Origin: Kitasatospora sp. NBC_01250
GTDB taxonomy: Bacteria; Actinomycetota; Actinomycetes; Streptomycetales; Streptomycetaceae
DNA: 64,000 nt
Reading direction: 5' to 3'
NCBI RefSeq assembly: GCF_036226465.1
Contig: NZ_CP108476.1
Coordinates: forward strand, 2,108,001 to 2,172,000
This document shows, one piece after another, positions 15,442 through 25,650 of the stretch (within the stretch, counting starts at the first letter, position 1; every line of letters begins with the position of its first letter). Below the pieces are notes generated by a model that worked only from the letters and a program-made list of their open reading frames with translations, had not been told where the DNA came from and made no database searches. The position numbers and the translations under genes are program-made.

Positions 15442-15485
15442 TAGACCGTTCATCCGACTTCCCTTCCTCACGACGCGGAGACCCG

Positions 15486-16106
15486 ATGGCCAACCCCCTC
15501 CTCCACCGCCCCGGTTCGACCGGGGAGCACCTGCTGCAGGAGGCCTACGGCTCCACCGAGCGCGCCGATCGCTTCTACCGCGAACAGGTGCTGGACCACC
15601 TCAACCCGCGGATGCGGGAGTTCGTCGCCCGCCAGGAGATGGCCTTCGTCGCCACCTCCGACGCGAAGGGCGAGTGCGACGCCACCTTCCGGGCCGGGCC
15701 GCCCGGCTTCCTGCACGTGATCGACCCGCACACGCTGGCCTACCCCGAGTACCGGGGCAACGGCGTGATGGCGAGCCTGGGCAACATCAGCGAGAACGGC
15801 CATGTCGGCCTGCTGCTGGTGGACTTCGTCCACGACGTGATCGGCCTGCACATCAACGGGCGGGCCCGGGTGCTGACGGACGCCCAGTTGCGCCCGTACG
15901 TCCCCGGCCTGCCGCTGGAGACGATCCCGGGCCGGCGCGCCGAGCACTGGGTCCTGGTCGACATCGACGAGGCCTATCTGCACTGCGCCAAGCACATCCC
16001 GCGGTTCGTCCCCGCACCGCGCACCCGTTCCTGGGGCACCGACGACACCCGACGCAAGGGCGGCGACTTCTTCGGCGCCAAGGAAACCAGCCAACACGTC
16101 CTCTGA
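15486..16106 (+). CDS. Pyridoxamine 5'-phosphate oxidase-family flavin-binding protein
   Basis: A 206-residue cytoplasmic protein with the split-barrel FMN-binding fold. The domain runs from about residue 40 to 150: the stretch beginning FVATSDAKGECDATFRAG, then GNGVMASLGNISENGHVGLLLVDF, are typical of the stand-alone PNPOx-like group. ATG at 15486 follows GCGGAG. It ends 20 bases before the flavohemoglobin gene and probably shares its transcript. Such pairs occur widely in bacteria and suggest a redox or nitrosative-stress role. It is not the vitamin B6 enzyme PdxH, which has different conserved residues. The substrate is unknown. Confidence 0.82.
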   Translation: MANPLLHRPGSTGEHLLQEAYGSTERADRFYREQVLDHLNPRMREFVARQEMAFVATSDAKGECDATFRAGPPGFLHVIDPHTLAYPEYRGNGVMASLGNISENGHVGLLLVDFVHDVIGLHINGRARVLTDAQLRPYVPGLPLETIPGRRAEHWVLVDIDEAYLHCAKHIPRFVPAPRTRSWGTDDTRRKGGDFFGAKETSQHVL

Positions 16107-16125: not shown

Positions 16126-17358
16126 ATGACCGACAATCCGACTCTGATCCGGGACAGCTTCGCGCTGGTGCAGCAGCACTCGGACAAGCTCACCGGCCAC
16201 TTCTACGCCACGCTCTTCCTGCACAACCCCGAGGTCCGCGAGCTCTTCCCGCCCGCGATGGACGTGCAGCGCGACCGGCTCTTCCGGGCCCTGGCGGGCG
16301 CCGTCCGGATGCTCGACCGCCCCGCCGAACTGACCTCGTTCCTGGAGCAGCTGGGCCGCGACCACCGCAAGTACGGGGTGCGCACCGAGCACTACGAGGC
16401 GGTCGGCAGCGCGCTGCTCGCCACCCTGCGCCGGTTCGCCGGCGAGGCCTGGACGCCCGCGCACGAGAGCGCCTGGAGCGAGGCCTACCGGCTGATCGCC
16501 GGCGCGATGAGCGGCGCCGCCGAGGCGGAGGCCGGGCGCACCCCCTCCAGCTGGCTGGCCGAGGTGGTCGGGCACGAGCAGCGCACCCCGGACCTCGCGG
16601 TGCTGACGCTGCGCCCCGACGCCCCGTTCCCCTACCGGGCCGGCCAGTACACCACAGTGGAGACCGCACGCTGGCCGCGCGTCTGGCGCCCGTACTCGAT
16701 CGCCAACGCCCCGCGCCGGGACGGCCTGCTGACCCTGCACGTGCGAGCCGTGCAGGCCGGCTGGGTGAGCAACACGCTGGTGCACCACACCCGGGTCGGT
16801 GACGTGGTCAGGCTCGGCCCGGGGCGCGGCTCCATGACGCTGCCCGAACGGCCCTCACGCCGGGTGGTCTGCGTGGCCGGCGGCACCGGGCTCGCCCCGG
16901 TCAAGGCGCTGGTGGAGGAGATGATCGCGCGCCACCGGCCGCTCACCCTGCACCTGTTCGTCGGTGCCCGGCAGCAGAGCGACCTCTACGATCTGCAGAG
17001 CCTGCGCCAACTCGCCAGCGTCTTCCCCCGGTTACTGCTCGTCCCGGTGATCTCCGCGGAGATCGGCTACCCGGGCGTGCAGGGCCGGCTGCCCGAGGTG
17101 GTGCCGGACCAGGGCCACTGGCCGGAGCACGAGGTCTTCGTGGCGGGCCCGGACGACATGGTGGTCAGCATGGTCGAGCGGTTCCAGCGCGACGGGGTAC
17201 CGGCCGAGCGGCTGCACTACGACCTGAGCACCACGCCGGCCGAACTCGACATCACCTCGGGCCTGCTGGAGGGCAGCGCGGGCCTGCTGGACGGTGGCAG
17301 CGGTCTGCTGGGCAGCCGCACGGGCCGGCCGGAGGGCGGCGAGCCCGCCGGCCGCTGA
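16126..17358 (+). CDS. hmp: Flavohemoglobin (nitric oxide dioxygenase)
   Basis: A 410-residue cytoplasmic protein that combines a globin with a ferredoxin-NADP+ reductase-like module; the family oxidises NO to nitrate using O2 and NAD(P)H. The globin domain covers residues 1-135, with Tyr28 in the B10 position (HFYATLF) and proximal His80 in GRDHRKYGV. The FAD motif WRPYSIANAP lies near 188 and the NAD-binding VAGGTGLAPVKAL near 250. Family length is about 400. The last 35 residues are a low-complexity Gly/Leu/Ser-rich tail with repeated GLLxGG/S units that Hmp proteins do not usually have. It is the second gene after the PNPOx-like protein. Confidence 0.9.
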   Translation: MTDNPTLIRDSFALVQQHSDKLTGHFYATLFLHNPEVRELFPPAMDVQRDRLFRALAGAVRMLDRPAELTSFLEQLGRDHRKYGVRTEHYEAVGSALLATLRRFAGEAWTPAHESAWSEAYRLIAGAMSGAAEAEAGRTPSSWLAEVVGHEQRTPDLAVLTLRPDAPFPYRAGQYTTVETARWPRVWRPYSIANAPRRDGLLTLHVRAVQAGWVSNTLVHHTRVGDVVRLGPGRGSMTLPERPSRRVVCVAGGTGLAPVKALVEEMIARHRPLTLHLFVGARQQSDLYDLQSLRQLASVFPRLLLVPVISAEIGYPGVQGRLPEVVPDQGHWPEHEVFVAGPDDMVVSMVERFQRDGVPAERLHYDLSTTPAELDITSGLLEGSAGLLDGGSGLLGSRTGRPEGGEPAGR

Positions 17359-17401: not shown

Positions 17402-19129
17402 TCAGCCCGCGTTGATCCGGGCCGCCCGCCGGAGCAGTCCGGGCGCCAGCCGGCCGATCCAGCGGGCCGCCTTCGCCTCCACCGTCACCGGCACCACCGG
17501 CTTGCCGGTGCGCACCGCGCGGACGATCTCGGCGGCCACCTTCTCCGGCGGGAAGCCGCGCCGGGCGTAGAGCTTGGCCGCCCGGGCCTGCTTGGCGGCC
17601 TGCTCGCTGCCGGAGGTGCCGGAGAAGGTCGAGGTCCGGGTGATGTTGGTGTTGACGATGCCGGGGCATATCGCGCTCACCCCGATGCCGCTGTCGGCCA
17701 GTTCGGCCCGCAGGCAGTCGGAGAGCATCAGCACCGCGGCCTTGCTGGTGGCGTAGGCGGCCAGCACCTTGGAGGGCAGGTAGGCGGCGGCCGAGGCCAG
17801 GTTGACGATGTGCCCGCCCTGGTCCCGCTCGACCATCAGCGCGCCGAAGGCCCGGCAACCGTGGATCACGCCCCACAGGTTGACGTCCAGCACCCGCTGC
17901 CACTCCTTCTCGGTGGTCTGCAGGAAGGTGCCCGAGTGGCCGATCCCGGCGTTGTTGACCAGCACGTCCGGCACCCCGTGCGCCGCCGCGACCTGCCGCG
18001 CGAAGTCGTCGACCGCCGCGCCGTCGCTGACGTCCACCTGGTAGGCGTGGCCCACCCCGCCCACCAGGGCGACCAGTTCGGCGGTCCGCTCGACGGCCTC
18101 CCGGTCCAGGTCGCAGACCACGACGGTGGCGCCCTGCTCGCCGAAGGCCAGCGCGGTGGCCCGGCCGATGCCGCTGCCGGCGCCCGTGACGACCACCAAC
18201 TGCTGCGCCGGTCCCGCCGGTTCGCCCCCGCTCTCGATCCGCCCGGTGAACTCGCGCACCATCTGGGCCACCACCGGGCCCTGTTCGAGCAGCGCGGACC
18301 AGTGGGTGGCGTTCAGCTCGCGCCGGGTGAGGCTGGGCACCCAGCGCTCCAGGCCCTCGGAGAGGAAGGCGCTGACGTAGCGGTCGCGGCGCAGCGTGAT
18401 CAGCTGCACCGGCACCTCGGTGGGGCGCTCGCGCGGGTTGCGCAGCGTGGGGCGCATGTTGGCGCGGTACAACTCGATGCCGCGCACCGCGTCCTGACGC
18501 AGCGTCTGCTGCGGGTGGCCGGCCCTGGGCTGGACCTTCTCCAGGTCGCGCAGCACCCGGGGCCAGGCCCGGGCCAGGCCGAGCCGCCAGGTCGCGGGCG
18601 CCAGGAAGGGCAGGTGGAAGGCGGCGATGTACCAGGAGTGCACGCCCTGGAGCAGGAGTTGGCGCAGGTGGCGGGGGGTGGGGCGGCGCATCCGGTGGCG
18701 GATCCAGTGGCCCATGTGGTCCAGGCAGGGCCCGGACATCGTGGTGTAGGAGGCCAGCCGTCGCTCGGCACCCGGCTCGGTGACCGCCTCCCAGGACTGC
18801 AGCGAGCCCCAGTCGTGCGCGACCACGTGCACCGGGCGCTCGGGGCTGACCGCGTCCGCGACCGCGAACAGGTCCGCCGCCAGCAGCGGCAGCCGGTACT
18901 CCGCACGGCTGCGCGGCACCGAGGACTCGCCGGCCCCGCGCACGTCGTAGCGGACCACGTGGTGGTCGGCGGCGAGTTCGGCGGCCACGTCGTCCCAGAC
19001 CCGGTGGGTGTCGGGATAGCCGTGCACCAGCAGCACGGTGGGCGCCGCGGGGTCGCCCTGCTCGAAGACGGCAAGGTCGACACCGGCACTGTGCACGGTG
19101 CGACGGCGGACAGCGGGGTTCTCACTCAC
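17402..19129 (-). CDS. Alpha/beta-hydrolase fused to short-chain dehydrogenase (EphD-like)
   Basis: A 575-residue fusion. The N-terminal half is an epoxide-hydrolase-type alpha/beta-hydrolase, with oxyanion motif HGYP at 36-39, nucleophile Asp106 in HDWGS and a probable catalytic His in NATHWSALLEQG near 275. The C-terminal half is a classical SDR, with the nucleotide loop TGAGSGIGRA near 315, NNAG near 395 and the catalytic YATSK near 458. The same domain order is found in mycobacterial EphD. GTG at 19129 overlaps the stop of the M24 gene, and it is the last gene of a four-gene operon. Both active sites look intact, so one protein could open an epoxide or cleave an ester and then oxidise the alcohol. 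The substrate is unknown. Confidence 0.87.
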   Translation of the reverse strand: MSENPAVRRRTVHSAGVDLAVFEQGDPAAPTVLLVHGYPDTHRVWDDVAAELAADHHVVRYDVRGAGESSVPRSRAEYRLPLLAADLFAVADAVSPERPVHVVAHDWGSLQSWEAVTEPGAERRLASYTTMSGPCLDHMGHWIRHRMRRPTPRHLRQLLLQGVHSWYIAAFHLPFLAPATWRLGLARAWPRVLRDLEKVQPRAGHPQQTLRQDAVRGIELYRANMRPTLRNPRERPTEVPVQLITLRRDRYVSAFLSEGLERWVPSLTRRELNATHWSALLEQGPVVAQMVREFTGRIESGGEPAGPAQQLVVVTGAGSGIGRATALAFGEQGATVVVCDLDREAVERTAELVALVGGVGHAYQVDVSDGAAVDDFARQVAAAHGVPDVLVNNAGIGHSGTFLQTTEKEWQRVLDVNLWGVIHGCRAFGALMVERDQGGHIVNLASAAAYLPSKVLAAYATSKAAVLMLSDCLRAELADSGIGVSAICPGIVNTNITRTSTFSGTSGSEQAAKQARAAKLYARRGFPPEKVAAEIVRAVRTGKPVVPVTVEAKAARWIGRLAPGLLRRAARINAG

Positions 19130-19983
19130 GCGGCGGTCTCCTCGAGCCTCGTCCAGCGCCGCACGTGCGGCAGGTCGTCATCCAACCAGTAGGCGTCGTC
19201 CTCGGTCACCACCAGCAGCTCCTCGAACTTGATGCCGACCGCGCGGAAGGCGATGTGCGGCTCCACCGCCCAGAGCCCGGGAGTGGGCGCGTGGTGGGAG
19301 GAGCGGCCGTCGGCCCAGAGCGGGGAGCGGCCGTGCAGGCGCTCGCTGATCAGCTCCCGGCCCAGGGTCTGCAGGGTGCGCACACCGAAGCCGAAGAGGT
19401 TCACCCCCATCGGCGCGCGGCTGGTGTTGCGGGTCACCTGGTGGCCGATCACCCGGCCCGGGTAGACCTGGTGGCGGTTGTCGTAGCCGTGCCGGGCGAT
19501 CTGCGCGTCGACGGCCGCGTACACCTCGTTCAGCGGCTTGCGGGCCCGCACCTCGCGCAGGATCAGCTCGCGGTAGACCCGCAGGTCCAGCGCGAGGCGG
19601 TCCCAGACCGGGTTGTCGCCGACCTTGCCGCCGTAGCCGATGTCGGCGGTGTAGCCGTCCACCACCGGGGCGCAGTCCAGCACGTAGGGCATGCCCTCCT
19701 GGAGCACCCGGGAGCCGGCGAAGAACTGCAGCGGGGTGTGGAAGTGGCGGAAGGCGGTGCGGTCGCCGAACCAGGCGAACGGGATGTGGAAGAAGTCCCG
19801 CACCCCGGCGGCGACCAGGCAGCGGCGCAGCTGGGCGGTGGCCTGGCGTTCGGTGACGCCGGGTTCGATCCAGGCGGCGACCTGCTCGGCGCAGTGGTAG
19901 GCCAGCTGCTGGACCTCGCGGAAGCGGTCCAGGTCCTGGGCGGTGTAGGCGAAGCCGGGGGTGTGCGCAACGGTGGGGCTCAT
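19126..19983 (-). CDS. M24-family (creatinase/aminopeptidase P-like) metallohydrolase
   Basis: A 285-residue pita-bread-fold protein. Metal-ligand positions are recognisable: Asp in LDCAPVVDGYTADIGYGG (near 105-118), His in RVIGHQVT near 180, Glu in AVEPHIAF near 243 and Glu in FEELLVVTED near 258. The ligand set DxxxD-H-E-E fits a dinuclear metal site, although the first Asp is displaced relative to methionine aminopeptidase. ATG at 19983 follows GGAGG. It begins 3 bases after the reductase gene and overlaps the fusion gene. M24 proteins include non-peptidases such as creatinase, and the metabolic neighbours favour a small-molecule substrate. Confidence 0.82.
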   Translation of the reverse strand: MSPTVAHTPGFAYTAQDLDRFREVQQLAYHCAEQVAAWIEPGVTERQATAQLRRCLVAAGVRDFFHIPFAWFGDRTAFRHFHTPLQFFAGSRVLQEGMPYVLDCAPVVDGYTADIGYGGKVGDNPVWDRLALDLRVYRELILREVRARKPLNEVYAAVDAQIARHGYDNRHQVYPGRVIGHQVTRNTSRAPMGVNLFGFGVRTLQTLGRELISERLHGRSPLWADGRSSHHAPTPGLWAVEPHIAFRAVGIKFEELLVVTEDDAYWLDDDLPHVRRWTRLEETAA

Positions 19984-19986
19984 GAG

Positions 19987-21111
19987 TCAGACCTCCAGGA
20001 CCAGGGTCTCGCCCTCGGCCGCACGCGAGACGCAGGGCAGCAGGGCGCCGCTCGCGCGCTCCTCGGCGGTCAGCCGGCGGTCGCGGTGTTCGGGGGTGCC
20101 GGCCAGCAGCTGGACCCGGCAGGTGCCGCAGAACCCCTGGTGGCAGGAGTAGGGCAGGTCGGGCCTGGCCTCGCGCAGCACGTCCAGCGCCGAGCGGTCC
20201 GCGGGGACGGGCAGCTGCTCGCCGCCCTCGCCGAGCTGGAGCGTGAACGGGCGGCCGCCTTGGATCGGGGCGGCGCCGAAGCGCTCGTAGTGCAGGGCGG
20301 TGGCGGGCGAGGCCTCGAAGGCGGCCTGGACGGCGGCCAGCATCGGGGCCGGGCCGCAGCAGTAGACGGCGCTGCCGGGGCCGGCCGCGGCCAGCAGCTC
20401 GGCGCCGGTGGGGACCGTGCCGCTGATCAGGGTGACCCGGGCGGGGTCCAGCGCGCGCAGCTCCTCGGTGAAGGGCATCGACGCCTCGCTGCGCCCGGCG
20501 TGCACCAGCTGCCAGTCCAGGCCGCGCCGCTGGGCCTCCCGGGCCATCGGCAGCAGCGGGGTGATGCCGATCCCGCCGGCCACCAGCAGCAGCCGCCGCT
20601 CGCCGCAGAAGGCGAAGCCGTTGCGCGGGCCGCGCACGGTCAGCCGGGCGCCGAGGTGCAGCTCGTCGTGGATCTCGCGCGAGCCACCGCCGCCGTCGGC
20701 GATCCGGCGCACCGCGATCCGGTAGCCGGTGCGGTCGGCCGGGTCGCCGCAGAGCGAGTAGTGGCGCTCGCGGCCCGAGGGCAGGGTCAGGCGCAGGTGG
20801 GCGCCGGGCTGCCAGGCGGGCAGCCGGTCGCCGGACGGGTCGGCGAGGCGCAGCTCGACCACGTCCTCGGCGACCGCGCGGTGGGCGGTGACCACCAGCG
20901 AGAGCGGGGCCCGCGAGCGGGGGGCGGGCAGGCGCGGGTTGCGGCGCAGCAGCGGGCGGCCCAGCGCGGGGGTGTAGACGTCGCCGAAGACGGTGACGGC
21001 GTGCATGAACCGGTCCAGCCGGGGGCGGCCGTAGAGGTCCGGCGGGGGCGTGTCGACGTCGAGCCGCGTGGTGCGGTGGAAGACGGTGGTGGGGGCGGGA
21101 GGGGTCTCCAT
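19987..21111 (-). CDS. PDR/VanB-type ferredoxin reductase with C-terminal 2Fe-2S domain
   Basis: A 374-residue electron-transfer flavoprotein. An N-terminal segment of about 50 residues precedes the flavin domain (RHYSLCGDP near 132), the NAD domain (VAGGIGITPLLPM near 175) and a plant-type 2Fe-2S domain (CHQGFCGTC near 323, final Cys in LLPCVS near 357). This layout is that of phthalate-dioxygenase reductase and other oxygenase reductases, which move electrons from NADH to an oxygenase. Directly upstream is a protein with a diiron carboxylate motif set, its likely partner. ATG at 21111 follows AAGGA. Confidence 0.9.
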   Translation of the reverse strand: METPPAPTTVFHRTTRLDVDTPPPDLYGRPRLDRFMHAVTVFGDVYTPALGRPLLRRNPRLPAPRSRAPLSLVVTAHRAVAEDVVELRLADPSGDRLPAWQPGAHLRLTLPSGRERHYSLCGDPADRTGYRIAVRRIADGGGGSREIHDELHLGARLTVRGPRNGFAFCGERRLLLVAGGIGITPLLPMAREAQRRGLDWQLVHAGRSEASMPFTEELRALDPARVTLISGTVPTGAELLAAAGPGSAVYCCGPAPMLAAVQAAFEASPATALHYERFGAAPIQGGRPFTLQLGEGGEQLPVPADRSALDVLREARPDLPYSCHQGFCGTCRVQLLAGTPEHRDRRLTAEERASGALLPCVSRAAEGETLVLEV

Positions 21112-21160
21112 CAGGCGGTCCTTGGGATCAGGCGGGCGGCCGTCGGTGGCGTCGGCGGCG

Positions 21161-22045
21161 TCAGTGGGCGGCGGCGCGGGCGGCCGGCGAGGTGGCGAGG
21201 TAGCCGAGCGCCTGCGCGCTGGAGCCCTCCTGGGTCGGGTGGTAGCCGGGCCTGAGGTAGCGCAGCCCCGAGCGCAGCGAGGCGAGGGGGTCGGGCAGCA
21301 GCCCGCGCTGGGAGATCTCCCAGGCCTGGCGCCAGGTCGGCCTGATCCGCCCGGCCAGCGTCGGGTCGGCCGCCAGCAGGTAGCGCACCCCGCGCACCCA
21401 CAGGTGCACCAGCAACGGTCCGGAGACCGTCATGCCGCGCACCCGCCGCAGGTAGCCCGGGTCCAGGTGCACCATCAGGTCGTAGGCCACGCTGCGGTGC
21501 TCGACCTCCTCGGCGCCGTGCCAGCGCAGCAGGTCCAGCATCGTCGGGTCGGCCTTGGCCCGGTCCAGGCCCGGCGAGTTGAGCGCCCAGTTGCCCAGGA
21601 ACGCGGTGAAGTGCTCGATCGCCGCGACGAAGGCGACCCGCTCGATGATGTTCTCCCGCCGCTGCCGCGGGCTCAGCCGCGGCTTCTCGCCGAGCACCCG
21701 CTGGAAGAGCCAGGCGATCTGCCGCACGTAGGGCCTGGGGTCGATCCCCTGGGTGATCAGGTGGTCGAGCACCTCCTGGTGCGCCTCGGCGTGGATCGAC
21801 TCCTGGCCGATGAAGCCGAGCACCTCCTCGCGCAGCTGCTCGTCGGTGATCAGCGGCAGGGCGTCCTTGAACACCTTGATGAACCAGCGCTCGCCCTCGG
21901 GCAGCAGCAGGTGGAGCACGTTGATGGTGTGCGTGGCGACGGGCTCGTCGGGGATCCAGTGCAGCGGGAGCGCGCTCCAGTCGAACTTCACGTCACGCGG
22001 CTCCAGCACGAGGTCCGCGTGCACCTCGGGGGCGTTTCTGGGCAT
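21161..22045 (-). CDS. Metal-dependent hydrolase-family (PF10118-type) protein with diiron motifs
   Basis: A 294-residue protein of the family annotated as predicted metal-dependent hydrolase. The sequence shows Glu52, then Glu82-x-x-His85, then Glu144 and Glu180-x-x-His183, all in predicted helices. E...ExxH...E...ExxH is the ligand pattern of ferritin-like diiron oxygenases. The next gene encodes an oxygenase-type reductase, so an oxygenase function is more attractive than hydrolysis; this is inference. ATG at 22045 is supported by AGGAGG nine bases upstream, better than the in-frame start at 22084. It is the first gene of the operon, and an inverted repeat at 22127-22158 lies upstream. Confidence 0.75.
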   Translation of the reverse strand: MPRNAPEVHADLVLEPRDVKFDWSALPLHWIPDEPVATHTINVLHLLLPEGERWFIKVFKDALPLITDEQLREEVLGFIGQESIHAEAHQEVLDHLITQGIDPRPYVRQIAWLFQRVLGEKPRLSPRQRRENIIERVAFVAAIEHFTAFLGNWALNSPGLDRAKADPTMLDLLRWHGAEEVEHRSVAYDLMVHLDPGYLRRVRGMTVSGPLLVHLWVRGVRYLLAADPTLAGRIRPTWRQAWEISQRGLLPDPLASLRSGLRYLRPGYHPTQEGSSAQALGYLATSPAARAAAH

Positions 22046-22174: not shown

Positions 22175-22218
22175 CCCCAGGGGTGGGTGGTGGCCACGGC
22201 CACCACCCACCCCTGGGG
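22175..22218. terminator. 21-bp perfect hairpin downstream of ppm1
   Basis: Arms 22175-22195 and 22198-22218 are perfectly complementary (first bases CCCCAGGGGTGGGTGGTGGC) with only AC between them, so the real loop must open a few pairs. It lies 16 bases after the stop of the mannosyltransferase gene on the minus strand and insulates it from the diiron operon. Confidence 0.85.
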
Positions 22219-22233
22219 TCACTCCGGCAGGCT

Positions 22234-22968
22234 TCAGCCCTGCTCGCTCCCGCGGTGCTTGGCCCGCAGGCGCCACGGCATCCAGGCCGACTCCAGCTGG
22301 GTGTTGATCGACATCTTCGACTCGCCCGAAGCGCGCTGCCCGAACCGGATCGGCACCTCGACGATGCGCACCCCGGCCTTGGCGGCCAGGTACTTCATCT
22401 CCACCTGGAACGAGTAGCCGTTGGACTCGATCCGCTCCAGGCCGACCGCCGCCAACGCCTCCTTGGACCACAGGTTGTACCCGGCGGTGACGTCGGCCGC
22501 CGGCACGCTCAGGATCGTCTTCACGTAGAAGTTGGCCCACTTGGACAGCAGCCGGCGGTGCGCGGCCCAGGCGTCGTCGAGCGAGCCGCCGGCGGTGTAC
22601 CGGGAGCCGATCACCACGCCGGCGCCGTTCTTGGCCGCCTCGATCATGTCCCGCAGCGCCGTCGGCGGGTGCGAGAAGTCGGCGTCCATCTGCACCACCA
22701 GGTCGGCACCGTCGGCGACCGCCTTGCTCATCCCGGCACGGTAGGCGCGGCCCAGGCCGTCCTTGGTCGTCCGGTGCATCACGGAGATCACCCCGGGGTG
22801 CGTCTCGGCCAGCTTGTCGGCCACCTCACCGGTGCCGTCGGGGCTCCCGTCGTCCACCACGAGGATGCCGAGGCCGTCGATTTCCAGGTTCAGCACTTCC
22901 TGCACGATCCGGGGGAGGTTCTCGACCTCGTTGTAAGTCGGGATCACCACAACGGTGTTGGTGGTCAC
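22234..22968 (-). CDS. ppm1: Polyprenol monophosphomannose synthase
   Basis: A GT2-family glycosyltransferase of 244 residues. It transfers mannose from GDP-mannose to polyprenol phosphate at the inner face of the membrane; the product feeds protein O-mannosylation and mannosylated glycolipids. Motifs are the N-terminal VVVIPTYNEVENLP, DDGSPDGT near 40, the metal-binding DAD in QMDADFSHPP near 92, and the Dpm1-type GYSFQVEMKY with a C-terminal ESKMS. There is no N-terminal acyltransferase (Lnt) domain, as in Streptomyces. The GTG at 22968 has GGAG seven bases before it; longer versions at 23085 start in non-conserved sequence. Confidence 0.9.
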   Translation of the reverse strand: MTTNTVVVIPTYNEVENLPRIVQEVLNLEIDGLGILVVDDGSPDGTGEVADKLAETHPGVISVMHRTTKDGLGRAYRAGMSKAVADGADLVVQMDADFSHPPTALRDMIEAAKNGAGVVIGSRYTAGGSLDDAWAAHRRLLSKWANFYVKTILSVPAADVTAGYNLWSKEALAAVGLERIESNGYSFQVEMKYLAAKAGVRIVEVPIRFGQRASGESKMSINTQLESAWMPWRLRAKHRGSEQG

Positions 22969-23155
22969 GGGTGCGCTCCGTTCAGCGGGAGTCAGCTGGT
23001 TTCGCTGGCCGCGGACCGGGCGGCCCACCGCGCCATCTAACTCACATGTTCGCAAGGACAGCTGAGAGCTAATCACACCGGCCAAGTCACCGAGAAAACA
23101 GCCCTTCAGCAGGCCCCGAGCACACCCTCGATCGTTCCCGAACCAGTCCGCTTCC

Positions 23156-23935
23156 TCAGACCGCCATCGCCAGCATCAGCGGCGCCGCCCGCTCCGCCAG
23201 CAGCTCGGCCGCCGCGCGCAGCCGGTGCGCGTTGGCCACCGGCAACGACATCGCCAGGCAGCCCACCGTGGTGCCGGCCGTCACCGGGACGGCGGCGCAG
23301 ACAGTGCCGAGGGCGTACTCCTGGAGGTCGAGCACCGGCATGGTGGCGGGCTGGCGCTCCAGGTGCTGCATCAGCTGCTCGGCGTCGGTGATGGTGCGCG
23401 AGGTGAGCCGGGCGATCGGGTGGCGGGCCAGGTGGTCCAGGCGGCCGTCGTGGTCGAGCTGGCTGAGCAGGCACTTGCCGATGGCACTGGCGTGGGCGGT
23501 GGCCTTGAAGTCGACCCACTCGTGGACCGCCGGCGCGTGCTCACCCGCGGCGACCGCCTCCACGCGCAGTTCGCCGTCGTGGTAGCGGCTGAAGTAGACG
23601 GCGGCACCGAGCTCGTCGCGCAGCTCGGTCAGCTTGTGCTGGAGGCGGATCCGGATCAGCTGCTCGCGGTTGTACTGGCCGAGCATCGCGAAGGTGCCGC
23701 CCAGCACCCAGCCGACGTCGGTGGACTGGAGGTACCCCTCGGTGCAGAGCAGATTGACCAGGTCACGCACCACCGGTTCGGGCAGGCCGGTCTCCCGGGC
23801 CAGGTCGGCCAGGCCCGCGCCGTACGGATGGCGGTCGGCGGCCTCCAGCAGGCGCAGCGCGCGCCGCAGCGAGGTGTGCGGCCCGAACTCGCCCTGGTCC
23901 AGCATGATCTGATGACCCTGACCGTGTGCCGGCAT
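23156..23935 (-). CDS. IclR-family transcriptional regulator
   Basis: A 259-residue regulator. The winged helix-turn-helix is at about residues 22-80 (SLRRALRLLEAADR ... LARETGLPEPVVRDLVNLLCTEGYL), and an IclR effector-binding domain follows (GKCLLSQL, AAVPV near the C-terminus). ATG at 23935 sits after GGAAGGGGAGG. It is monocistronic, with no clear target beside it: downstream is ppm1 on the same strand and upstream is the 3' end of catalase. A perfect palindrome at 24042 may be its own operator. It differs clearly from the AllR-type IclR at 45148. Confidence 0.85.
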   Translation of the reverse strand: MPAHGQGHQIMLDQGEFGPHTSLRRALRLLEAADRHPYGAGLADLARETGLPEPVVRDLVNLLCTEGYLQSTDVGWVLGGTFAMLGQYNREQLIRIRLQHKLTELRDELGAAVYFSRYHDGELRVEAVAAGEHAPAVHEWVDFKATAHASAIGKCLLSQLDHDGRLDHLARHPIARLTSRTITDAEQLMQHLERQPATMPVLDLQEYALGTVCAAVPVTAGTTVGCLAMSLPVANAHRLRAAAELLAERAAPLMLAMAV

Positions 23936-24041
23936 GGCCTCCCCTTCCGCTGCCCCGGGTATCCTCCACAGCCTATCCACCGAACGCCCAGCGCACCCCC
24001 AGGTCCGGCGAGAATCCCACGGGTGACGGGTAATGGCCGAA

Positions 24042-24189: not shown

Positions 24190-25650
24190 TCAGCCCTCGT
24201 CGCCCGCGCGGAGCTTGGCCACGGCGGCCGCCAGGCGGCTGCCGTACTCCTCGTCCGCGGCGTGGAAGTGCGCCAGGTTCTTCTCGATCACGTCGTCGCG
24301 GGTGACCTGGGCGAGGAAGCCCGCGAGGTTGTCGATCAGCCGGGACTTCTCGCCCTCGGACATCAGCCGGTACAGCTCACCGGCCTGGAAGAAGTCGTCG
24401 TCCTTGGTGTGCGCCGGCGTGCTGTAGGTGCCGGTGTGGCCGCCGAGCGCGAGCGGGGCGGCCAGCGGCCGGTCCGTCTGGGCCGGGCCGTCGTAGGAGT
24501 TGGGCTCGTAGTTCTTGCCGCGCCCGGCCTTGTTGACGGCCGAGAAGCCGTCACGGCCGTAGTTGTGCGCCTCGGTGGCCCTGGGCGCGTTGACGGCGAG
24601 CAGCGTGTGGTTGACGCCGAGGCGGTAGCGCTGGGCGTCCGCGTAGGCGAACAGCCGGCCCTGGAGCATCTTGTCGGGCGAGGGGCCGATGCCGGGCACG
24701 AAGTTGTTGGGCGAGAAGGCGGCCTGCTCGACCTCGGCGAAGACGTTCTCCGGGTTGCGGTTCAGCACCAGGCGGCCGACCTTGACCAGCGGGTAGTCCG
24801 CGTGCGGCCAGACCTTGGTGAGGTCGAAGGGGTTGAAGCGGTAATCGGCCGCCTCGGCCACCGGCATCAGCTGGACGTACAGGGTCCAGGACGGGAAGAC
24901 GCCGCGCTCGATCGCCTGGTGCAGGTCGCGCTGGTGGCTGTCGGCGTCGCCGCCCACCACCTCGGCGGCCTGGCCGCCGTCCAGCGAGCGCACGCCCTGG
25001 TTGGTCTTGAAGTGGTACTTGACCCAGAACGCCTCGCCCTCCTCATTGACCCACTGGTAGGTGTGCGAGCCGTAGCCGTTCATGTGGCGGTAGGAGGCCG
25101 GGATGCCGCGGTCGCCGAAGAGCCAGGTGATCTGGTGGGTGGCCTCGGGGGCGTGCGCCCAGAAGTCCCACACGTTGTCGGCCTCGGTGATGCCGGTGAA
25201 CGGGTCGCGCTTCTGCGAGTGGATGAAGTCGGGGAACTTCAGCGGGTCCTTGATGAAGAAGACCGGGGTGTTGTTGCCGACCAGGTCGTAGTTGCCCTCG
25301 GCGGTGTAGAACTTCAGCGCGAAGCCGCGCGGGTCGCGCACCGCGTCGCTGGCGCCCAGGTTGCCGGCCACGGTGGAGAAGCGCAGGAAGACCTCGGTGC
25401 GCTTGCCGACCTCGGCGAGGAAGTCCGCGCGGGTGTACTTGGCGACCTCGTCGGTCACCTCGAAGTAGCCGTACGCGCCGGAGCCGCGGGCGTGCACCAC
25501 CCGCTCCGGGATGCGCTCGCGGTTGAACCGGGCGAGCTTCTCCAGCAGCTGCTGGTCCTGGATGAGCAGCGGGCCGTACTCGCCGGCCGAGGCCGAGTTC
25601 TGGTTGTCGGCGATCGGGGCGCCGGACTCGGTGGTCAGGTTCTTGGGCAT
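24190..25650 (-). CDS. katA: Catalase (monofunctional, small-subunit clade)
   Basis: A 486-residue haem catalase that dismutates H2O2. The distal His is in VVHARGSGAYG near residue 54, the distal Asn lies in the AGNLGASDAVRDPRG region, and the proximal Tyr is in RLFAYADAQRYRLG near 340. Length and lack of a C-terminal flavodoxin-like domain place it in the small-subunit class. ATG at 25650 has GAAGGAC upstream. It follows allantoicase on the same strand with 81 bases between, so it may be the third gene of the allB-alc operon. Since xanthine oxidation and especially uricase release H2O2, such linkage makes sense; co-regulation is inference. Confidence 0.95.
   Translation of the reverse strand: MPKNLTTESGAPIADNQNSASAGEYGPLLIQDQQLLEKLARFNRERIPERVVHARGSGAYGYFEVTDEVAKYTRADFLAEVGKRTEVFLRFSTVAGNLGASDAVRDPRGFALKFYTAEGNYDLVGNNTPVFFIKDPLKFPDFIHSQKRDPFTGITEADNVWDFWAHAPEATHQITWLFGDRGIPASYRHMNGYGSHTYQWVNEEGEAFWVKYHFKTNQGVRSLDGGQAAEVVGGDADSHQRDLHQAIERGVFPSWTLYVQLMPVAEAADYRFNPFDLTKVWPHADYPLVKVGRLVLNRNPENVFAEVEQAAFSPNNFVPGIGPSPDKMLQGRLFAYADAQRYRLGVNHTLLAVNAPRATEAHNYGRDGFSAVNKAGRGKNYEPNSYDGPAQTDRPLAAPLALGGHTGTYSTPAHTKDDDFFQAGELYRLMSEGEKSRLIDNLAGFLAQVTRDDVIEKNLAHFHAADEEYGSRLAAAVAKLRAGDEG

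Follow-up and report, generated by a model that had tools for sequence, protein, structure and literature searches.

A protein annotated as a metal-dependent hydrolase in Kitasatospora is a probable ferritin-like diiron oxygenase encoded with a reductase and an EphD-type epoxide hydrolase

The 64,000-nucleotide stretch of Kitasatospora sp. NBC_01250 analyzed here (contig NZ_CP108476.1, positions 2,108,001 to 2,172,000; hereafter the window) carries an operon of four minus-strand open reading frames (ORFs), 22045-17402, encoding in order a PF10118 ('Metal_hydrol') protein, a reductase, an M24 metallohydrolase and an EphD-type fusion. The PF10118 protein is probably a ferritin-like diiron oxygenase with a dedicated reductase, and would most likely act as an alkene or acyl epoxidase feeding EphD. 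A preliminary description of this DNA had already proposed a diiron oxygenase behind the hydrolase label, a proposal favored by the ligand residues, the predicted fold, the reductase partner and the replacement of the gene by one of the AurF family. All four ORFs lie where that description had placed them and are tightly packed: the first two are 49 nt apart, a further 3 nt separate the second from the third, and the third and fourth overlap by 4 nt. The products are the following:

21161..22045, minus strand: PF10118 protein of 294 amino acids (aa), predicted ferritin-like diiron oxygenase, ligand signature E52, Q81-E82xxH85, E144, H176xxE179-E180xxH183
19987..21111, minus strand: phthalate dioxygenase reductase (PDR)-type reductase, 374 aa, flavin and NAD(P) domains plus C-terminal plant-type 2Fe-2S domain, cysteines C323, C328, C331, C360
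19126..19983, minus strand: M24-fold metallohydrolase, 285 aa, metal ligands D103, D114, H181, E241, E254 intact
17402..19129, minus strand: EphD-type fusion, 575 aa, of an alpha/beta epoxide hydrolase (HGxP, D106, Y167, Y221, H276) and a short-chain dehydrogenase (SDR; TGxxxGIG, S446, Y459, K463)

The 21161 protein scores 261.7 bits against PF10118 (Pfam cut-off 33.2). Across an alignment of 78 PF10118 proteins, with identity down to 22%, residues E52, Q81, E82, H85, H89, E144, H176, E179, E180, E182 and H183 are invariant, giving the complete signature E52 / QE82xxH85 / E144 / H176xxEE180xxH183, and the diiron pattern E ... ExxH ... E ... ExxH is present in every sequence. The preliminary description had listed E52, E82xxH85, E144 and E180xxH183; these six residues stand at the positions given and are invariant, including E52 and E144, whose conservation in orthologues it had treated as decisive. 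H176, H89 and Q81 had been missed, and their addition shifts the closest known family from generic two-histidine diiron oxygenases to the AurF/CylC type. H176xxxE180xxH183 forms a third-histidine motif, and the resulting 3-His/4-carboxylate set is the one published for AurF, CmlI and DnfA, which share E/ExxH/E/HxxxExxH; the ligands of DnfA are Glu88, Glu123, His126, Glu182, His209, Glu213 and His216 (PMC9478400). This mode is largely limited to N-oxygenases, and CylC halogenases carry QExxH and HxxDExxH (PMC12101540). PF10118 has the QExxH motif of CylC, whereas its second motif is HxxEExxH, not HxxDExxH, in 78/78 proteins. The acidic residue preceding ExxH, which is D135 in AurF (PMC12101540), is replaced by Q81 throughout the alignment.

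Profile searches gave no match of the 21161 protein to PF11583 (AurF family), even at E<=10, while one distant PF10118 paralogue reached 15.4 bits (cut-off 29.6). Sub-threshold Pfam matches of single PF10118 members fell on three ferritin-like families, namely rubrerythrin, COQ7 and AurF, and a sequence search of the PDB found no relative with a solved structure. Helix 198-226, considered as a possible membrane anchor, is hydrophobic in some members of the family and not in the 21161 protein (19-residue mean 1.05).

Structure prediction, to which the preliminary description had looked for the arrangement of the ligands, indicates that the 21161 protein is very probably a four-helix ferritin-like bundle with a predicted diiron site. 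In the AF2 model, built from the 78-sequence alignment (pLDDT 95.2, pTM 0.92), four successive helices of 28-31 residues (35-65, 69-98, 126-155 and 167-194) each bear one ligand group on the expected helix and in order: E52; E82/H85/H89; E144; and H176/E180/H183. The best structural matches obtained with Foldseek and VIA-align were ribonucleotide reductase (RNR) R2 (Z 14.4), R2lox (14.1), the soluble methane monooxygenase (sMMO) hydroxylase (13.4), CmlI (13.4) and AurF (13.2), and the matches shown in both structural lists are ferritin-like diiron proteins throughout.

The adjacent 19987 protein combines FAD_binding_6, NAD_binding_1 and Fer2 domains (Pfam), has all four Fe-S cysteines and intact flavin and nicotinamide motifs, and can be aligned along most of its sequence to phthalate dioxygenase reductase (2pia, E 5e-54) and to CYP116B reductase domains (7e-59). 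Its best NCBIfam match, PaaE (TIGR02160), remains below threshold at 93.1 against a cut-off of 420.8. The preliminary description had paired this 2Fe-2S reductase with the oxygenase, and the pairing is kept through independent rearrangements. The reductase occurs at 79/80 named PF10118 loci, which were picked by PF10118 alone and are nearest relatives, hence a biased set. In a more even phylum sample, 19 PF10118 loci show at least 43% identity; the reductase was found at 14 of them, and at two further loci of that sample (L036 and L046) the gene just after PF10118 encodes another, FAD-type ferredoxin reductase. The dnf cluster likewise encodes an FNR-2Fe-2S partner, DnfB (PMC9478400). These observations suggest that the 19987 reductase is the dedicated electron supplier of the PF10118 enzyme.

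The 17402 protein matches Abhydrolase_1 and adh_short (Pfam) and reaches 821.6 bits with the NCBIfam equivalog NF004514 (cut-off 455). Its catalytic residues, comprising the nucleophile D106, the cap tyrosines Y167/Y221 and H276 of the hydrolase half and the SDR triad S446, Y459 and K463, are kept at >=97% in 41 proteins. EphD-type genes are found at 36/80 named PF10118 loci, in the orders DIIRON>RED>M24>EPH, DIIRON>RED>EPH, EPH>DIIRON>RED, M24>EPH>DIIRON>RED and DIIRON>EPH>RED (DIIRON, PF10118; RED, reductase; EPH, EphD-type gene). In 12 loci, the hydrolase half without the SDR adjoins PF10118. On the Rhodococcus fascians plasmid L195, the order is TetR > PF10118 > PDR reductase > limonene-1,2-epoxide hydrolase (LEH), with overlapping starts, the last gene being:

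L195:8006-8824: limonene-1,2-epoxide hydrolase-type gene, PF07858, 55.7 bits (cut-off 24), of a fold unrelated to the alpha/beta enzyme

The presence of this enzyme in EphD's place in the operon is our main reason for preferring an epoxide as the product; combined with the 12 loci bearing the hydrolase half, it suggests that the intermediate these operons have in common is an epoxide. The epoxide hydrolase link drawn in the preliminary description thus persists through independent rearrangements and two replacements by unrelated or distant enzymes. Epoxymycolate synthesis was set aside as the function of the operon: mycolic acids are lacking in the window's relatives, streptomycete-type bacteria not being known to make them, and the operon-bearing mycobacteria are for the most part slow growers, which are not known for epoxymycolates.

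The strongest functional evidence comes from M24-EphD operons in which an AurF-family (PF11583) gene takes the PF10118 slot. Coupled ORFs in the order M24>AurF>EphD were found at L215:8339-11914 and L216:6283-9825, and the fragment L220:2-2514 reads AurF-family>EphD; all three lie outside the window's order, in a distant actinobacterial family. An AurF-family gene also stands near a hydrolase-half-only EphD at L209:4870-8061 and L210:6767-10883, in genomes lacking PF10118 and with a TetR gene divergent from the AurF gene. These two cases, 1.4-2.3 kb from the epoxide hydrolase, were not counted as operons because an oppositely oriented gene intervenes in L209 and L210 appears alike. At L218:717-4066, the gene after an M24 homologue encodes an SDR with a fused membrane domain, and the stretch shows no diiron gene; a MerR-like regulator occurs near the M24-EphD genes in L216, L218 and L285.

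The M24 gene is itself closely tied to its neighbors. Pfam and NCBIfam agree with the preliminary description that the two further coupled genes encode an M24 metallohydrolase and an epoxide hydrolase-SDR fusion. The 19126 protein scores 76.3 bits with Peptidase_M24 and has the five metal ligands conserved; its model has a pLDDT of only 69, with a Foldseek match to Xaa-Pro peptidases (pita-bread fold) at E 4e-12. The gene directly precedes EphD in all 26 streptomycete cases checked, and this pairing holds where PF10118-reductase-TetR sits at a separate locus (L203-L205 versus L033, L030 and L032). Among 148 genomes of the window's order, 81 have both M24 and PF10118, 5 M24 alone, 3 PF10118 alone and 59 neither (Fisher p 2e-31, kinship ignored). 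An rpoB tree of 60 genomes, in which all eight exceptions were deliberately included, gave 10 independent contrasts for M24, five agreeing in PF10118, none opposing and five uninformative, so that the support corrected for descent is modest and one-sided. One of the exception genomes, G437, retains a decayed short PF10118 remnant directly after EphD (L285:8421-8600) and no other PF10118. The association of PF10118, reductase, EphD and M24 recurs across actinobacteria, in line with the survey of co-occurrence that the preliminary description had put forward.

In the proposed mechanism, electrons from NAD(P)H would pass through the flavin and the 2Fe-2S cluster of the 19987 reductase to an iron-containing diiron site in the 21161 enzyme. 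The reduced site would react with O2 to form a peroxo-diferric oxidant, and this would insert one oxygen in a hydrophobic substrate. The likeliest site is a C=C bond in an isoprenoid or an unsaturated acyl chain, which would thereby become an epoxide. The hydrolase half of EphD would then open the epoxide to a diol, and its SDR half would probably oxidise one of the hydroxyls. The M24 protein could contribute a hydrolytic step accompanying that of EphD, possibly amide cleavage.

Several observations weigh against this interpretation. No direct biochemical evidence was found in the literature for any PF10118 member, and the epoxide as product is deduced from gene neighborhoods alone. At the loci of more distant PF10118 paralogues (22-33% identity), no reductase or epoxide hydrolase is adjacent, and six loci with M24-EphD-PF10118 in a sister family, as well as L037, lack the adjacent reductase. 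The comparison of PF10118 with the AurF family by hhalign gave a probability of 4%, with only the HxxEExxH stretch aligned, and profile-profile homology between the two was dropped, the alignment being too weak to claim it. Z values near 14 are not decisive alone for helical bundles, a caveat softened because the listed matches come from one superfamily and the order of the ligands agrees. Finally, characterized AurF relatives mostly N-oxygenate, and the substrate could be an amine. In a rival explanation, the same oxygenase and reductase carry out C-H hydroxylation, desaturation or N-oxygenation, and EphD acts on a separately formed epoxide or another bond. It is from N-oxygenases that 3-His/4-carboxylate sites are best known (PMC9478400, PMC12101540), and 140/148 genomes of the window's order have EphD-type genes, many of them without PF10118, which suggests that EphD also functions independently of it. 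However, the unrelated LEH in the same operon place and the linkage of the hydrolase-only half in 12 loci argue for an epoxide, and we regard this explanation as rather unlikely, though a serious contender.

Other functions appear far less plausible. An enzyme of the dimetal halogenase kind, related to CylC/NocO, would agree with the invariant QExxH and with the glutamine that replaces AurF D135, HxxEExxH differing from the HxxDExxH of CylC; yet the neighbors are a reductase and epoxide hydrolases, the surroundings of PF10118 showed no acyl-carrier or FAAL genes, and such an activity is very improbable. We give similarly little credence to an iron-binding oxidase, peroxidase or ferroxidase of R2lox or rubrerythrin type, protecting against stress among incidental neighbors: R2lox and RNR R2 are among the best structural matches and a flavohaemoglobin and a catalase are encoded nearby in the window, but this would leave unexplained the linkage of two epoxide hydrolase folds, the several gene orders and the co-occurrence of M24 and PF10118 at unlinked loci. 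A metal-dependent hydrolase, as the database name has it, can be credited with that name only and is barely conceivable in view of the ferritin-like fold, the diiron ligand set, the reductase partner and the AurF-family replacement. An epoxidizing diiron oxygenase therefore remains the preferred assignment. Its extension to the whole group is put forward more tentatively, and may well prove too broad: PF10118 would be an unrecognized family of single-subunit, AurF-like (3-His) diiron alkene or acyl epoxidases with their own PDR-type reductases, forming with EphD and a dedicated M24 protein a conserved actinobacterial pathway of lipid oxidation.

PF10118 was present in 61/61 sampled genomes of the window's genus and the M24 gene in all 37 checked, and each of the 27 loci of the genus that span all four genes keeps the order seen in the window. 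On a Dietzia plasmid, M24-EphD-PF10118-reductase-TetR form a single unit. Genus-wide presence together with plasmid copies suggests that the operon is a core trait in the genus and mobile elsewhere. The Acinetobacter plasmids L196 and L200 encode PF10118 with TetR, PaaI-type thioesterases and BtrH-like or alpha/beta hydrolases, a neighborhood that offers a hint, and no more, of acyl substrates; chromosome-size records of A. baumannii show up to nine PF10118 places.

Upstream of the operon, a hairpin probably marks the boundary of its transcription unit, and a pattern scan called no T-tailed terminator there:

22175..22218, minus strand: GC-rich hairpin, 20 bp, z -6.4, separating the operon from the glycosyltransferase gene upstream

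Further upstream, at 22234-23980 and 24190-25650 (both minus strand), are genes for a glycosyltransferase family 2 protein (polyprenol-mannose synthase-like), an IclR regulator and a catalase; an IclR-like gene is also present upstream in five close relatives. Convergent with the operon are genes for a flavohaemoglobin-like protein with globin, FAD and NAD domains (16126-17358, plus strand) and a PNPOx-type flavin protein (15480-16106, plus strand). The operon had no PADLOC match as a defence system.

If the assignment is correct, a hydrolase-annotated family spread over plasmids and chromosomes of Mycobacterium, Rhodococcus, Streptomyces, Acinetobacter and Burkholderia would become a family of O2-activating enzymes. 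PF10118 would be a concrete candidate for the missing oxygenase partner of EphD-type epoxide hydrolases, including those of bacteria without mycolic acids, and its histidine-rich QExxH/HxxEExxH site, lying between N-oxygenases and dimetal halogenases, would reveal how this ligand set acts on carbon substrates. In the literature searched, PF10118 was named in one paper, as a candidate protease by correlation, and no mention of COG3687 was found. The preliminary description knew of no pathway with this gene set, and no paper describing it was found in our search either, which left most subscription journals outside its reach, so that earlier work is possible; the literature search also found no published link of EphD to a diiron oxygenase.

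Among known systems, AurF, CmlI, AzoC and DnfA (PF11583) resemble PF10118 in the four-helix ferritin-like fold predicted for it and in their E, ExxH, E and HxxxExxH ligands, and DnfA also in the FNR-2Fe-2S partner of its cluster, comparable to the PF10118 reductase. In contrast to this family, PF10118 has no significant PF11583 match, carries Q81 and an additional invariant H89, and has epoxide hydrolases as partners. The CylC/NocO dimetal halogenases share QExxH and the HxxxExxH helix, and CylC performs fatty-acyl chemistry; PF10118 differs in HxxEExxH and in its PDR-type reductase, the comparison being one of published motifs. PaaABCE and BoxAB are ferritin-like diiron epoxidases with FNR-2Fe-2S reductases. 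They parallel the predicted epoxidation by PF10118 at a diiron site fed by a flavin/iron-sulfur reductase, whereas PF10118 would be a single oxygenase subunit with another ligand set and an EphD-type hydrolase. Phthalate dioxygenase reductase (2pia) and CYP116B are long-range relatives of the 19987 reductase that serve Rieske or P450 oxygenases, the probable partner here being PF10118. Mycobacterial EphD (Rv2214c / MSMEG_4280) cleaves 9,10-epoxystearate, and its overproduction lowers epoxymycolate levels (PMC7998700); the 17402 protein is the same epoxide hydrolase-SDR fusion and exceeds the NF004514 cut-off.

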